DNA of 60,494 bases from Clostridiaceae bacterium (lineage in GTDB: Bacteria > Bacillota > Clostridia > DSM-8532): positions 1 through 60,494 of the forward strand of contig JAAYFU010000020.1 of the NCBI GenBank assembly GCA_012728095.1, in the 5' to 3' direction. Shown one piece after another: positions 44,693-51,943 of the stretch. The notes under the pieces are model-generated. The model saw nothing but the letters and a program-made list of their open reading frames with translations. It had not been told where the DNA came from and did not search any database. How positions within the stretch are numbered: the first letter of the stretch is position 1; the number at the start of each line of letters is the position of its first letter. The translations under genes and the position numbers were made by a program.

Positions 44693-44769
44693 TGGCGTGC
44701 CAGAGATGATTCGAACACCCGACCGACGGATTAGAAGTCCGTTGCTCTATCCTGCTGAGCTACTGGCAC
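44693..44769 (-). tRNA. tRNA-Arg (anticodon TCT)
   Basis: The minus strand folds into a complete cloverleaf: acceptor GTGCCAG/CTGGCAC, D-arm TAGCTCAGCAGGATAGAGCA, anticodon arm with loop CTTCTAA (TCT), T-arm GGTTCGAATC-like (GTGTTCGAATCAT), and encoded CCA at 44693-44695. It reads AGA/AGG codons and stands alone between a hypothetical gene and pepF. Confidence 0.95.
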
Positions 44770-45829: not shown

Positions 45830-47116
45830 ATGAGTAACACTTCTTATAATCCCTTTGAGATTGCTCAGCAGCAATTTGATTCGGTTGCCTCAAAGATAGG
45901 CCTTGATGACGCAACCCGCGAATTTTTGCGCCAGCCTATGCGGGAATATCATTTTACAATTCCCGTAAAAATGGATGATGGTACCACAAAAATTTTTAAG
46001 GGCTTCAGAGTACAGCATAATGACGCAAGGGGACCCGCAAAAGGTGGTATTCGTTTCCATCCAATGGAGACCATTGATACAATTCGGGCCCTGTCTATGT
46101 GGATGACATGGAAATGTTCTGTTGTTGACATTCCCTTAGGCGGTGGTAAAGGCGGCGTCATTTGTGATCCAAGGAATCTTACAGAACGCGAACAGGAAAG
46201 ACTATGCCGAGGCTATGTCCGTCAGTTGGCAAGAAATGTCGGCCCTAACATTGATGTTCCTGCCCCCGATGTTATGACAAATGCAAAGCATATGCTTTGG
46301 ATGCTTGACGAATATGAAGCTATCCACGGCAGCAGAAATCCCGGATTTATTACAGGTAAACCTGTAGGTATGGGCGGTTCTTTAGGAAGAACCGAAGCTA
46401 CAGGTTATGGTGTTATCTATGTTCTGCATGAAGCATTGAAGAATCTTAATATACCTATTGAAAACACTACGGCCAGTTTTCAGGGTTTTGGCAACGTTGC
46501 ACAGCATGCCGTCAGGTTATATCAGCAATTAGGCGGTAAGGTCGTTGCCATTTCCTGTTGGGATGAAGCGGACAAAAAGCCCTATACTTTCCGCAAAATG
46601 GACGGCATGGACATAGATGCCCTGGTAAATATCACAGATGCATACGGGACTATCGATAAAGACAAAGCCAGGGACTTGGGATATGAAGTTCTGCCGGGGG
46701 AAGCCTGGATTGAACAGGATGTTGACATTTTGATTCCCGCTGCTTTGGAGAACCAGATAACAATTGAGAATGTACATAAAATCAGCAAGCAGATTAAGAT
46801 TATTTGTGAAGCGGCTAACGGACCGACAACTCCCGATGCCGACAGGGTAATAGATGAAAGAAATATATTCCTCATTCCTGACTTTCTGGCCAATGCCGGA
46901 GGTGTGACCTGCAGCTATTTTGAACAGGTTCAGTCCAACCAGAATTATTATTGGGAAAAGGATGAGGTTCTTGCGAAACTAAAAATAAAGATGACCTCAG
47001 CTTTTAAATCAGTTTACGAGCTGGCAAAGAGCAAAAACTTGCGTATGCGGGACGCTGCCTATGTAATTGCTATTAATCGTGTCGCTCAGGCTGTAAAGAG
47101 CCGCGGATGGGTTTAA
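45830..47116 (+). CDS. gdhA: glutamate dehydrogenase (Glu/Leu/Phe/Val dehydrogenase family)
   Basis: This 428-residue protein has the catalytic-lysine region RGPAKGGIRFHP near residue 70, WKCSVVDIPLGGGKGGV near 92, and the nucleotide-binding motif FQGFGNVAQHAVRL near 210. It interconverts glutamate with 2-oxoglutarate, ammonium and NAD(P)H. The DEADKKPY segment after the second beta strand does not settle cofactor choice. It is monocistronic by spacing (256 nt to the next gene). With the GltS-type carrier 3 kb downstream it suggests that glutamate flow is important here. Confidence 0.95.
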   Translation: MSNTSYNPFEIAQQQFDSVASKIGLDDATREFLRQPMREYHFTIPVKMDDGTTKIFKGFRVQHNDARGPAKGGIRFHPMETIDTIRALSMWMTWKCSVVDIPLGGGKGGVICDPRNLTEREQERLCRGYVRQLARNVGPNIDVPAPDVMTNAKHMLWMLDEYEAIHGSRNPGFITGKPVGMGGSLGRTEATGYGVIYVLHEALKNLNIPIENTTASFQGFGNVAQHAVRLYQQLGGKVVAISCWDEADKKPYTFRKMDGMDIDALVNITDAYGTIDKDKARDLGYEVLPGEAWIEQDVDILIPAALENQITIENVHKISKQIKIICEAANGPTTPDADRVIDERNIFLIPDFLANAGGVTCSYFEQVQSNQNYYWEKDEVLAKLKIKMTSAFKSVYELAKSKNLRMRDAAYVIAINRVAQAVKSRGWV

Positions 47117-47372: not shown

Positions 47373-50300
47373 ATGGATAATGAACATATCGTATCCGACA
47401 ATTTATTAAATGTCTTGAAGGAACGCGAAAAAGAATTAAACTGCCTCTACATGGTTGATGAGATTCTTGAAAATCCCCAATTATCTTTGCCTGAGATTTT
47501 CAACGGAATAATAAGAGTATTGCCCTCCGGCTGGAGGTTCCCCGAACTGTGCCGCGCAAGAATAATATACAAAAACCAAAATTATCAGAGCCCTGGTTTT
47601 ATATCTTCTCCCCTTTCTTTAACTGCTGATATTAAAACAGACGGAAAAACTGTAGGAAAAATTGAAGTTGTATATATTCAGGAAGTACCAACAACCGATG
47701 AAGGGTATTTCCTTTATAAAGAAAAAAAACTGATTAAGCATGTTGCTGACAGAATAGGCCAGGTACTTGTTTACAGGCATATGAAAGCCGTAATGCACGG
47801 CTGGGAAGAAACCAAATCAGTTTTGACAGGCTCTGAGAATGAATCAAAAGAGTGGGAATTTTTAATTGAGTTTCTTAAGAATACCGACCACAGCACGCTT
47901 CTGCACATATGCAGGAAACTGACGAATTACCTTCTTTTTTTAGGAATAAACGAGGCATCTGAGCTTTTTTACCGTTCTCCCGGCACATTATTTTACGATG
48001 ACGGTTATGCAAATTATCCCACAGCAACTGCTCCCATAGATGATATAGAATGCATCTGTGAAAAAGCGTTCAGTGTCGCAAAGAAATACATCGGCGCCGA
48101 AGAGCTGAAAAACCAAATCAAAAGATGGATGCTCGAAGAAAGCGCATACTCCCTGGTAAAGGCAATCGGCAGTACTTGTCCCATTCTTCATAATATAATT
48201 GAGGCTCTTAGAAAATTCAAAAAATTCCCAAAAAGAGACAAGCTGCTATACTCCCCAAAAGGGCGATGGATTACCGTAGGTCTAATAAAGAACTTTTTAA
48301 CTGAGAGGCCTGATTTTATAAATATTGCCGCACAGTATTTAACCTTTAATGACTTTTATGAAATTATCGAGAGAATTATTTATCCACCGGACAGTCAAGG
48401 CCGTATCGGCGGCAAGGGAACAGGCCTGTTCCTTGCAAGCAAGATATTGAAAAAAGAAAAAGAAAATATTCCTCAGCTTGATTCCATTAAAACTCCGAAA
48501 ACCTGGTATATCACAACAGATACCATAACCAGGTTCCTGCATTATAACGATTTGGAAGAACTCAATGAGCAAAAATACAGGGATATCCAGGAAACCCGTT
48601 TGGAATACAGAAATCTTATTCAGTTGATGAAAAGCTTCAAGCTGCCTCCTGAGATATTAAACAGTCTTTCAGTTGCTCTGGATGATTTTGGCGATACACC
48701 GATTATTGTCAGGAGCTCCAGCGTCCTGGAGGATCAGACCGGCGCTTCTTTTTCCGGTAAATATAAGAGTCTGTTTTTAGCTAATCAGGGCAGTAAACAG
48801 GAAAGGCTGGAAGCACTTCAGGATGCTATTATTGAAGTATATGCGTCAATGTTCAGTCCGGACCCCATCCAGTACAGGGCAGAAAGAAATCTATTGCACA
48901 GCACGGAAGAAATGGGCATAATGATACAACAAGTTGTCGGAAACAAAGTAGGCAAATATTTCTTCCCTCTTTTTTCAGGTGTTGCATTTAGTAACAACGA
49001 ATACAGATGGTCGCCCAGAATAAAACGTGAAGACGGTTTATTAAGGATGGTTCCGGGTTTGGGCACCCGTGCTGTGGACCGTTTGACAGATGACTTTCCA
49101 ATACTTGTATCACCCCAGCAGCCGGGTATCAGGGTCAATATTGTTCCTGAAGAAATAAAAAAATATTCGCCAAAAAAGATTGATGTTATTAATCTTGAGA
49201 AAAATGCCTTTGAAACAATAGAAATTTCGAAGCTGCTTAAAGAATACGGGAATCAAATTGAGAATATAAACAAAATTGTTTCCATCATGGAATACGATCA
49301 TATCAGAAAGCCCAATTTATTTGAGATAGATTTTGAAAAGGACGACCTTGTCGTAACTTTTGACGGTATAATAAGCGATTCGCCCTTTATTTCACAAATA
49401 AACACCGTCGTCAAGACTTTGCAGGAAAAGCTGGGGTATCCGGTAGATATTGAATTTGCATCTGACGGAAAAGATTTATATCTCTTACAATGCAGGCCGC
49501 AAAGCGTAAGAGATGAGACCGCTCCTGCTCCCATTCCCCAGGATGTGCTTCCCAAGGATATTATTTTTACTGCCAATCGTTATATTTCAAACGGGCTTAT
49601 TCAAAACATATCACATATTGTTTACGTTGTCCCGGAACGTTACAGCGAACTGACCGATCTGAACGATTTAAAAACCGTGGGGAAAATTATAGGCGCATTA
49701 AATTCATTCCTTCCGAAACGTCAGTTTATTCTTATAGGTCCCGGCCGTTGGGGAAGCAGAGGAGATATAAAACTGGGCGTATCTGTCAAATATGCTGACA
49801 TCTGCAATACCGCGGCTTTAATAGAAGTAGCAAAAAGTAAAAGCGGGTATGTTCCTGAATTGTCTTTCGGCACTCATTTCTTCCAGGATCTTGTAGAGGC
49901 CAATATACGTGTGCTGCCCTTGTATCCTGATAACAATGGTATTATTTTTAACGAGAAATATCTTACCAAATCCAGGAATATTCTTAAGACTATATTCCCT
50001 GAATACGAAAGATTCGAGGATATTGTAAGAGTAATAGATGTTCCGTCCACCTCTGACGGGTGTAATTTGAGTATATGCATGAATGCTGAATTATCCCAGG
50101 CTATAGGATTCCTTACCCCCCACAAAATTAAGATTCCCCGTCAGCACAATGTGGTTGAATACGAGGATTATAAAGGCGATGACAAAGCCTGGAGATGGCG
50201 GTATCATATGGCTGAACTGCTGGCTTCAAGAATCGATCCTGAAAGGTTCGGAGTCAAAGGTTTATATCTTTTTGGAAGCACAAGCACAGGCACAGCAGGT

Positions 50301-50546
50301 CCCGGCAGTGATATTGATATTATTGTTCACTTTGATGGAAATGAGAATCAGCGAAAAGAGCTTGAAAACTGGCTGGAAGGCTGGAGCATGAGTCTTGCCG
50401 AGATAAATTACATGAATACCGGCTATAGAATGGATAAAATGCTTGATGTCCACATCATTACAGATGAGGACATCAAGAACAGGGATTCCTTTGCAATTAA
50501 GATTAATCACCCGGTAGATCCGGCCATACCTTTAAAAACCTCTTAA
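47373..50546 (+). CDS. GAF-like / PEP-synthase ATP-grasp / nucleotidyltransferase fusion protein
   Basis: This 1057-residue protein has an N-terminal GAF-like sensor (about 5-140; KEREKELNCLYMVDEILENP, then KTVGKIEVVYI). Next comes a helical region and the PEP/pyruvate-binding ATP-grasp of PpsA (about 340-710): RIGGKGTGLFLA, IIVRSSSVLEDQTGASFSGK and YLLQCRPQS. A further conserved module follows (about 720-930: LIGPGRWGSRGDIKLG, FGTHFFQDLVEA). The last 100 residues are a Pol-beta-type nucleotidyltransferase with FGSTSTGTAGPGSDIDIIVH near 966. The swivelling phosphohistidine domain and the PEP TIM barrel of real PEP synthase are both missing, so it cannot be a normal PpsA. It may sense a ligand and phosphorylate or nucleotidylate a target. 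An RBS (GGGAGCC) precedes the ATG. Function is unknown. Confidence 0.85.
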   Translation: MDNEHIVSDNLLNVLKEREKELNCLYMVDEILENPQLSLPEIFNGIIRVLPSGWRFPELCRARIIYKNQNYQSPGFISSPLSLTADIKTDGKTVGKIEVVYIQEVPTTDEGYFLYKEKKLIKHVADRIGQVLVYRHMKAVMHGWEETKSVLTGSENESKEWEFLIEFLKNTDHSTLLHICRKLTNYLLFLGINEASELFYRSPGTLFYDDGYANYPTATAPIDDIECICEKAFSVAKKYIGAEELKNQIKRWMLEESAYSLVKAIGSTCPILHNIIEALRKFKKFPKRDKLLYSPKGRWITVGLIKNFLTERPDFINIAAQYLTFNDFYEIIERIIYPPDSQGRIGGKGTGLFLASKILKKEKENIPQLDSIKTPKTWYITTDTITRFLHYNDLEELNEQKYRDIQETRLEYRNLIQLMKSFKLPPEILNSLSVALDDFGDTPIIVRSSSVLEDQTGASFSGKYKSLFLANQGSKQERLEALQDAIIEVYASMFSPDPIQYRAERNLLHSTEEMGIMIQQVVGNKVGKYFFPLFSGVAFSNNEYRWSPRIKREDGLLRMVPGLGTRAVDRLTDDFPILVSPQQPGIRVNIVPEEIKKYSPKKIDVINLEKNAFETIEISKLLKEYGNQIENINKIVSIMEYDHIRKPNLFEIDFEKDDLVVTFDGIISDSPFISQINTVVKTLQEKLGYPVDIEFASDGKDLYLLQCRPQSVRDETAPAPIPQDVLPKDIIFTANRYISNGLIQNISHIVYVVPERYSELTDLNDLKTVGKIIGALNSFLPKRQFILIGPGRWGSRGDIKLGVSVKYADICNTAALIEVAKSKSGYVPELSFGTHFFQDLVEANIRVLPLYPDNNGIIFNEKYLTKSRNILKTIFPEYERFEDIVRVIDVPSTSDGCNLSICMNAELSQAIGFLTPHKIKIPRQHNVVEYEDYKGDDKAWRWRYHMAELLASRIDPERFGVKGLYLFGSTSTGTAGPGSDIDIIVHFDGNENQRKELENWLEGWSMSLAEINYMNTGYRMDKMLDVHIITDEDIKNRDSFAIKINHPVDPAIPLKTS

Positions 50547-51943
50547 GATTCTTCAATTTCTTTTTTCCTGCGAACCTTAAGCATTATAAACAGAAGCGGA
50601 ATCAGATATACAACAAGCAGCCCCAATGTTACAAACAGCATTTGATCTGATTCGGGCGCAAGTCCTATAAACACCAGCATAGGAGCCCCCAATGCTATAG
50701 CAAAGCTGCTTCCTGTCAACAGATTATTTGCAGCGGGAGTTTTGAACTCAGGATCTATTTCCCTTAGCAATACTACTCCCGAACTGATTGTCCCTGTAAG
50801 CATTCCGTACATGGAAACCATTCCTTCATGCTCATATCCGGGATATATTCTTTTGCACAACCATAACAGATAATAATAGGTTACAATACCGCCAAGGATA
50901 GCCATCAGAAGGAAAGGAACCCATAATCCTTTCAATTCCTTGAATTCGATTGACGCTATACCGGCGATGGTCATGAAATCAAACGCAAGACCGGATATCC
51001 TGGATAATAAATAATTATTTGGGTATTGGCGCGTCATTACCTTCGCCTTTGTCAAAGCGTCAAATCCCAGTCGGCAGCCTATTGCCAATATCGAACCTGT
51101 GATAAAATTAAATCCCCAAATTATTGGCGACAACGTCTTTGACAAACCAGGCGCAACATTCGTCAATAAACTTGTAACGCCAAGGGATACTAAGTACGTG
51201 ACCAGATATATTAATAGAACCAGTGCACACTGAATAGAAAACCTGTCAACCGATTGGGATATGGGAATCTCATTCTTACTCTGAAAATCTTCTACAGTAA
51301 CCGAACCTGAGATATATTCCGGTTCCTGAACTGATATTCTTTTTTGCCTTTTTACTATATTTATATAATATATGCCCACAACACAGGCACATATAAATCC
51401 TGCAGCGGCAATTGACAGCCCGAAGGATTGCCCTCCCACAAAACCCAGCTGCTCATAAGACGAGCCGACATTATTGGCCTGTCCCGGCCCCTGACCAAAT
51501 CCCATTGGTAAAAGTATACCGGCGGCCTTAAAAAAGCCGGGCATTATTGTATATCCTAGTCCAATTGAAATTATCAGACCCAAAATACCCTGAACCAAGT
51601 ATGTACTTACAATTAACGCACCGCTCTTAAGCCCTGCCAAATCATTCTTTTCTTTCTCGCCGTATTTTGCAGGAATTCTTAAAGAAAGTGCAATGAAGCC
51701 AATACCTATAGTATGGTAAGTAACTTTTTCCAGAAAGTCCAATTCCAGAGGAAGCAAATTCAGTTCTCTTAAAAATAACGCTATAAAACCGCCTAATACC
51801 GCCGTAGGAACCATAGCTTTCCTGATAAAAGCTATTTTACGGGTCAGTATATTGGCAAAAAGCAGAAGCCCGGCTATTAATCCAAACTGAATAATGAAAT
51901 CCCACAAACTGGTATTAGCCGCAGAAAAATCCACAAAAAACAC
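50543..51943 (-). CDS. gltS: GltS-family sodium/glutamate symporter
   Basis: This 466-residue membrane protein has about ten helices and the GltS signature MGFGQGPGQANNVG near residue 146, repeated more loosely at GMLTGTISSGVVLLREIDPE near 390. ESS-family carriers import glutamate with Na+. It is larger than E. coli GltS (401) because of a hydrophilic loop (ISVQEPEYISGSVTVEDFQS) near 205-235. It overlaps the end of the convergent fusion gene by 4 nt. It neighbours a GDH gene but is not in its operon. Confidence 0.9.
   Translation of the reverse strand: MFFVDFSAANTSLWDFIIQFGLIAGLLLFANILTRKIAFIRKAMVPTAVLGGFIALFLRELNLLPLELDFLEKVTYHTIGIGFIALSLRIPAKYGEKEKNDLAGLKSGALIVSTYLVQGILGLIISIGLGYTIMPGFFKAAGILLPMGFGQGPGQANNVGSSYEQLGFVGGQSFGLSIAAAGFICACVVGIYYINIVKRQKRISVQEPEYISGSVTVEDFQSKNEIPISQSVDRFSIQCALVLLIYLVTYLVSLGVTSLLTNVAPGLSKTLSPIIWGFNFITGSILAIGCRLGFDALTKAKVMTRQYPNNYLLSRISGLAFDFMTIAGIASIEFKELKGLWVPFLLMAILGGIVTYYYLLWLCKRIYPGYEHEGMVSMYGMLTGTISSGVVLLREIDPEFKTPAANNLLTGSSFAIALGAPMLVFIGLAPESDQMLFVTLGLLVVYLIPLLFIMLKVRRKKEIEES

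Follow-up and report, generated by a model that had tools for sequence, protein, structure and literature searches.

The gene at 47373-50546 on the forward strand of a 60,494-nucleotide stretch of Clostridiaceae bacterium DNA (the window) encodes a 1057-residue protein in which a GAF domain, a helical region, a PPDK_N ATP-grasp, a module resembling a swivelling histidine domain, and a nucleotidyltransferase (NTase) follow one another, and it lies just downstream of gdhA, the gene for glutamate dehydrogenase (GDH). We propose, with a probability of slightly under 60%, that this protein is a GAF-gated covalent regulator of the GDH encoded just upstream, which it would reversibly modify by AMPylation and/or phosphorylation. 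GDH is a carbon-nitrogen crossroads enzyme; the covalent switch of glutamine synthetase (GS) by GlnE is textbook knowledge, and we know of no dedicated modifying enzyme established for prokaryotic GDH, nor did the papers that we searched describe one. The core family described below supplies a named, testable candidate GDH modifier in a dozen distant groups.

Architecture and catalytic residues

The features of the locus are as follows.

45830-47116, +: gdhA, GDH gene and putative functional partner (Pfam ELFV_dehydrog, 1e-72; linkage)
47373-50546, +: gene for the 1057-residue GAF / helical / PPDK_N ATP-grasp / His-swivel-like / NTase protein (frame, Pfam, structure model)
47400-47810, +: GAF domain, residues 10-146 (VIA-align Z 13.2 to the 3cit GAF)
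47835-48371, +: all-helical middle region, residues 155-333 (structure model; no Pfam family)
48402-49538, +: PPDK_N ATP-grasp domain, residues 344-722 (Pfam E 1.2e-62)
49539-50120, +: GPGRWGS/FGTHFFQ module, residues 723-916, probable diverged swivelling phosphohistidine domain (structure alignments, strand/helix order)
49875-49877, +: codon of H835, candidate phosphoacceptor histidine (conservation)
50184-50543, +: NTase domain, residues 938-1057 (NTP_transf_2 at residues 957-999, E 4.4e-11)
50274-50318, +: GSX10DXD motif, G968 S969 ... D980, D982 (NTase-row alignment)

An earlier note on this DNA, made from the letters and their reading frames, had described one uninterrupted 1057-codon frame, and this frame is indeed present, with the opposite strand closed by stops along its whole length. 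The order of the parts is the same in eight full-length orthologues sharing 61-84% identity with the window protein. A Pfam scan left residues 1-343 and 723-929 without any match. The structure model, built from 117 homologous rows (an input of nine sequences gave a pLDDT of only 49), reached a mean pLDDT of 91.3 and a pTM of 0.76. Residue conservation was scored over about 102 diverse rows, with all architectures included.

The GAF-like N-terminus anticipated in the earlier note is supported by fold, residues 10-145 matching solved GAF domains: the alignment to 3cit extends over 126 residues, and the GAF domains of NifA and PtsP (the latter 3trc and 3ci6) match the same region with Z 11+. A profile of this region also matches short GAF-NTase proteins, and the helical region that follows is restricted to the long form of the family. 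The PpsA-type ATP-grasp was likewise borne out, both by PPDK_N and by an hhalign comparison with the profile of Escherichia coli PpsA (probability 99.2, E 6.6e-20). In structure alignments, residues 304-719 of the model match the ATP-grasp of rifampin phosphotransferase (RPH), PEP synthase (PEPS), and PPDK, with a Z of 26 against RPH and PEPS. Mapped by motif, the K22/R92/E323/Q335/R337-type dikinase residues are present as K348, R447, E694, Q706, and R708. Across the scored rows, R447, D454, and E694 never vary, and Q706, R708, and K348 each change in a few rows only, several of which are misaligned short proteins.

The GPGRWGS and FGTHFFQ motifs are present and conserved among homologues. 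The earlier note had held that no phosphohistidine domain accompanies them, which is probably wrong, as in the model residues ~723-930 fall onto the region that forms the swivelling His domain in PPDK, PEPS, and RPH. Alignments limited to the ATP-grasp domain (5lu4_B, 5hv1) match 231-296 residues, and those to 5hv3, 2ols, and 1dik reach 386, 364, and 348 residues. On the model, the latter stop at residues 888, 916, and 930, which fall within the FGTHFFQ module or at its end, and on the template chains they stop at residues 854, 467, and 525, in or just past the swivelling His domain, which in RPH spans residues 767-865 (PMC4844700); such alignments yield residue ranges only, not residue-level superposition. 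Position 835 is a histidine in 100 of 102 diverse relatives and is the sole conserved histidine of the module. It lies at a helix start in the model, the order of strands and helices appears to be that of the swivelling His domain, and by this order H835 would overlay the template histidine.

Sequence profiles give no sign of this domain. PF00391 is not matched anywhere in the protein by the Pfam scan, the module alone yields no profile-profile match to PF00391-type sequences, and hhalign anchored on the ATP-grasp finds nothing past residue ~749, the template profiles being shallow in both comparisons (Neff about 2). The FGTHFFQ module (~723-930) is most likely a diverged swivelling His domain, visible by fold alone, and phosphotransfer chemistry would thus be retained. 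An intact swivelling His domain had been named in the earlier note as evidence against its own interpretation; its partial recovery, in the structure model and not in the profiles, corrects the domain reading and leaves the regulatory one unharmed. A natural H-to-R substitution at the H835 position (YGTRFF) occurs in two standalone cores of sister genomes (L214, L218), which are otherwise well kept and possibly inactive.

The NTase end with its GS..DID residues is also present. GSX10DXD is kept in all 54 NTase-bearing rows, so that the loss of these residues in close homologues, which the earlier note had set as a counter-sign, is not observed, and a third acidic residue, D1025, is conserved across the same rows. 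MNT antitoxins are among the structure matches of the domain, and some matches in the NCBIfam scan are aminoglycoside nucleotidyltransferases. MntA AMPylates its partner protein and needs GSX10DXD to do so (PMC7641770), a motif related to the GX11DXD of GS adenylyltransferase (PMC7641770). By motif and partner, the window protein would be a GlnE-type modifier and a candidate member of the AMPylators.

Several identities can be set aside. Pfam and NCBIfam scans find no PEP/pyruvate TIM barrel in the protein, in agreement with the earlier note, and its C-terminus is the NTase instead; a metabolic PEP synthase is thereby ruled out. It is not a rifampin phosphotransferase either, as the module stands directly behind the ATP-grasp with no RIF-binding domain between them and the NCBIfam score is 52.7 against a cut-off of 999. 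The MntA antitoxin model NF047752 scores 31.2 bits against an NCBIfam cut-off of 60, and the conserved neighbour is GDH, not a HEPN toxin.

Linkage to glutamate dehydrogenase and the wider family

The gene upstream, named gdhA in the earlier note, is a GDH gene by Pfam. It is separated from the 1057-codon gene by 256 bp, a gap in which no forward-strand terminator-like site was found. Of the long-form loci, 49 have 1.4 kb or more of upstream sequence, and in 47 of them a GDH gene precedes the long form on the same strand, at a median gap of 65 bp; GDH lies within 350 bp in 43 of these 47, and in the other four a further core gene, whole or in pieces, intervenes. The two exceptions are L067, which lies close to a contig end, and the second of the copies in L077, which is inverted. 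When all neighbours were clustered, GDH was the only family found in 12 of 12 taxonomic groups, followed by a metallophosphoesterase in five, with every remaining family in three or fewer. In 61 related genomes, the long form always stands beside GDH wherever the upstream flank is readable, and GDH is often present without the long form. Besides, the identity matrices of GDH and of the long-form protein correlate (r 0.84 over 41 loci), and the linkage could reflect co-regulation or co-transfer as one cassette. A comparison of partnered with unpartnered GDHs brought out no residue that cleanly marks the partners, only drift-like differences.

The gltS assignment that the earlier note gave to the other flank received no Pfam or NCBIfam support; this neighbour, a 466-residue membrane protein encoded at 50543-51943 (-), is matched by no model of either collection and is seen in close relatives only. 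A tRNA gene (Rfam RF00005) lies at 44696-44769 (-), between an M3 peptidase gene and gdhA.

The core, PPDK_N plus the FGTHFFQ module, occurs in several settings. In the window protein, it is combined with the GAF domain, the helical region, and the NTase; in Bacteroidota, Aminicenantes, and archaea, with response-regulator (REC) domains; in Clostridia, with an N-terminus that reads as KaiC-like from sequence, unsupported by Pfam; and it is also found standalone, without any sensor. The genome of the window protein also carries a paralogue (L002, G000:C43:231-2777) made of a KaiC-like N-terminus, PPDK_N, and the FGTHFFQ module, with no NTase, which is 33% identical to the window protein over the core. 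Short GAF-NTase proteins without a core are present in Bacteroidales and in one Selenomonadales genome, and as each of the four short-form genomes searched also encodes a core protein, the long form looks like two cooperating parts that became fused in nature. One archaeal locus (L086) has the gene order gdhA, REC-PPDK_N, GAF-NTase, a split version of the window set, and in another locus (L092), gdhA is followed by a short GAF-NTase. A search of plasmids returned distant Bacteroidales relatives only.

In these other architectures, another type of GDH adjoins the core, on the same or the opposite strand. Of 31 loci with REC-type relatives, 17 have GDH no more than 1.5 kb away, mostly in Bacteroidota and often in both GDH types. 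In Parabacteroides distasonis, the annotated gdhA adjoins a “PEP/pyruvate-binding domain-containing protein” (WP_041525632.1), and the core gene and its nearest gdhA are transcribed divergently. Four of 17 KaiC-type relatives lie beside GDH and 13 do not, and the loci of standalone cores in Bacillota (L241-L246, L312-L317) hold no GDH; it may therefore be that not every family member acts on GDH. KaiC-type cores were also observed directly behind the glutamate synthase genes gltB and gltD in two related genomes (L230, L310), and, in a same-strand run of genes, behind one for a PrkA serine kinase and ahead of one for an NADP-type GDH (L308:4765-10775, L309:5145-11300).

Short forms have GDH within 1.5 kb in only one of 17 loci, those of Bacteroidales adjoining a metallophosphoesterase instead. 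There, a calcineurin-like phosphoesterase with intact metal motifs nearly always lies ≤30 bp behind the short GAF-NTase, and the two are possibly a writer/eraser pair. In L088, L089, and L093-L103, the phosphoesterase is 282 residues long, with motifs DLHG, GGD, GNDD, and GHVHE.

According to older reports, genes nearby change the activity of Bacteroides GDH, or the enzyme is inactivated within the cell, and its reversible inactivation in vivo was reportedly described for B. fragilis in 1987; the literature that we searched contained nothing relevant on a GDH-modifying dikinase or on reversible B. fragilis GDH inactivation. The response-regulator relatives beside gdhA in Bacteroidales may explain such reports. 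That the Parabacteroides core gene, divergent as it is from its nearest gdhA, is the “downstream” gene of Baggio and Morrison (1996) is unproven.

A proposed switch for glutamate dehydrogenase and its alternatives

In the mechanism that we favour, the GAF domain would read a nitrogen or energy signal, and the ATP-grasp would use ATP to phosphorylate H835 and set AMP free, in the manner of PEP synthase and rifampin phosphotransferase, a step suggested by the conserved residues and the model. From the charged His domain, the phosphate could go on to GDH or to a residue within the regulator; a protein is the expected acceptor because no small-molecule acceptor domain is present. In PTS enzyme I, phosphate is handed from such a His domain to another protein. 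The MNT-type nucleotidyltransferase, to judge from GSX10DXD and the linkage, would put AMP on GDH, inactivating or tuning it, and the neighbouring metallophosphoesterase, where present, may remove the mark. The whole would amount to a GlnE-like switch for GDH with a built-in dikinase-type phosphate relay. In mammals, AMPylation by SelO lowers the activity of the GDH Glud1 (PMC12375108).

The earlier note had tentatively read the protein as a signal-controlled kinase or nucleotidyltransferase tied to nutrient status rather than a PEP synthase, which fits the GAF domain, the ATP-grasp residues, the fully kept AMPylator motif, and the GDH linkage; its “unknown target” need not stand, as the linkage points to GDH.

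The protein might instead make or charge a small molecule downstream of the GDH product, for example by phosphorylating and nucleotidylating a glutamate- or 2-oxoglutarate-derived compound, and leave GDH unmodified. The known enzymes with PPDK_N and a His domain (PEP synthase, PPDK, rifampin phosphotransferase) do act on small molecules, and the aminoglycoside nucleotidyltransferases among the NTase matches point the same way. We consider this unlikely, given that no substrate domain of the TIM-barrel or RIF-binding type separates or follows the catalytic parts, the neighbourhood has no other conserved pathway gene, and the sensor varies (GAF, REC, KaiC-like) around a constant core, as in a regulator.

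The split and fused forms, in which kinase core and GAF-NTase work together, would also suit a regulator that acts on itself, its state being set by H835 phosphorylation and auto-AMPylation and GDH being controlled by binding. PTS systems offer a case of reversible phosphohistidine signalling that works by binding, but to control binding with two intact catalytic motifs would be costly, and this arrangement seems quite improbable. Transcriptional or post-transcriptional control of the gdhA operon, or the mere carriage of a co-transferred bystander, is very unlikely: the pair does move as one cassette with correlated identities, yet the Pfam scan reveals no DNA- or RNA-binding domain in the 1057-residue protein, the GDH linkage persists over 12 groups while other neighbours turn over, and in other architectures the core adjoins another type of GDH, on the same or the opposite strand. 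An antitoxin- or defence-type MNT protein is hardly credible, as the weak NTase matches to the MntA and PADLOC PDC-S09 profiles cover the generic NTase core alone (31 against 60 bits for the NCBIfam cut-off) and the conserved neighbour is GDH, with no conserved toxin or defence gene.

More tentatively, at what we judge to be somewhat below even odds, the family would be a widespread new class of enzyme switch in bacteria and archaea, in which an ATP-driven phosphohistidine relay, fused to or partnered with an AMPylator, reversibly modifies GDH, the sensor being exchangeable (GAF, response-regulator, or KaiC-like) and a phosphoesterase acting as eraser.

Comparison with known systems

The proposed GDH regulator resembles GlnE in its NTase-fold AMPylator motif (GX11DXD in GlnE, PMC7641770) and in its suspected target, a central enzyme of ammonia assimilation. 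GlnE, however, has two NTase domains, answers to PII, and acts on GS, whereas the window protein combines a single NTase with a GAF sensor and an ATP-grasp/His core, and its gene is linked to that of GDH rather than GS. With MntA of the HEPN-MNT type VII toxin-antitoxin systems, it shares a GSX10DXD NTase fold that in MntA AMPylates a partner protein; MntA is a lone domain of <150 residues paired with HepT, whereas the window NTase is fused to a sensor and a kinase core and paired with GDH.

With PpsA, PPDK, and RPH, it has in common the ATP-grasp catalytic residues and a module positioned like their swivelling His domain, but it lacks the TIM barrel or RIF-binding domain, carries a GAF domain and an NTase in addition, and has a putative His domain too diverged for PF00391. 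EI-Ntr (PtsP), a nitrogen-linked regulator, has a GAF sensor joined to a His phosphocarrier domain, as the window protein probably does, and the GAF domains match structurally; enzyme I uses PEP through a TIM barrel, whereas the window ATP-grasp would use ATP, and the window protein is not known to have an NPr/HPr partner. An annotated counterpart, WP_041525632.1 of P. distasonis, has the same PPDK_N and FGTHFFQ-type core next to gdhA, but a response-regulator sensor replaces the GAF domain, the NTase is missing, and the annotation describes no function. The family suggests a use of PPDK-type ATP-grasp/His chemistry in signalling as well as in metabolism or drug resistance. In the window protein, familiar chemistry is arranged in a new way and probably directed at a new target.
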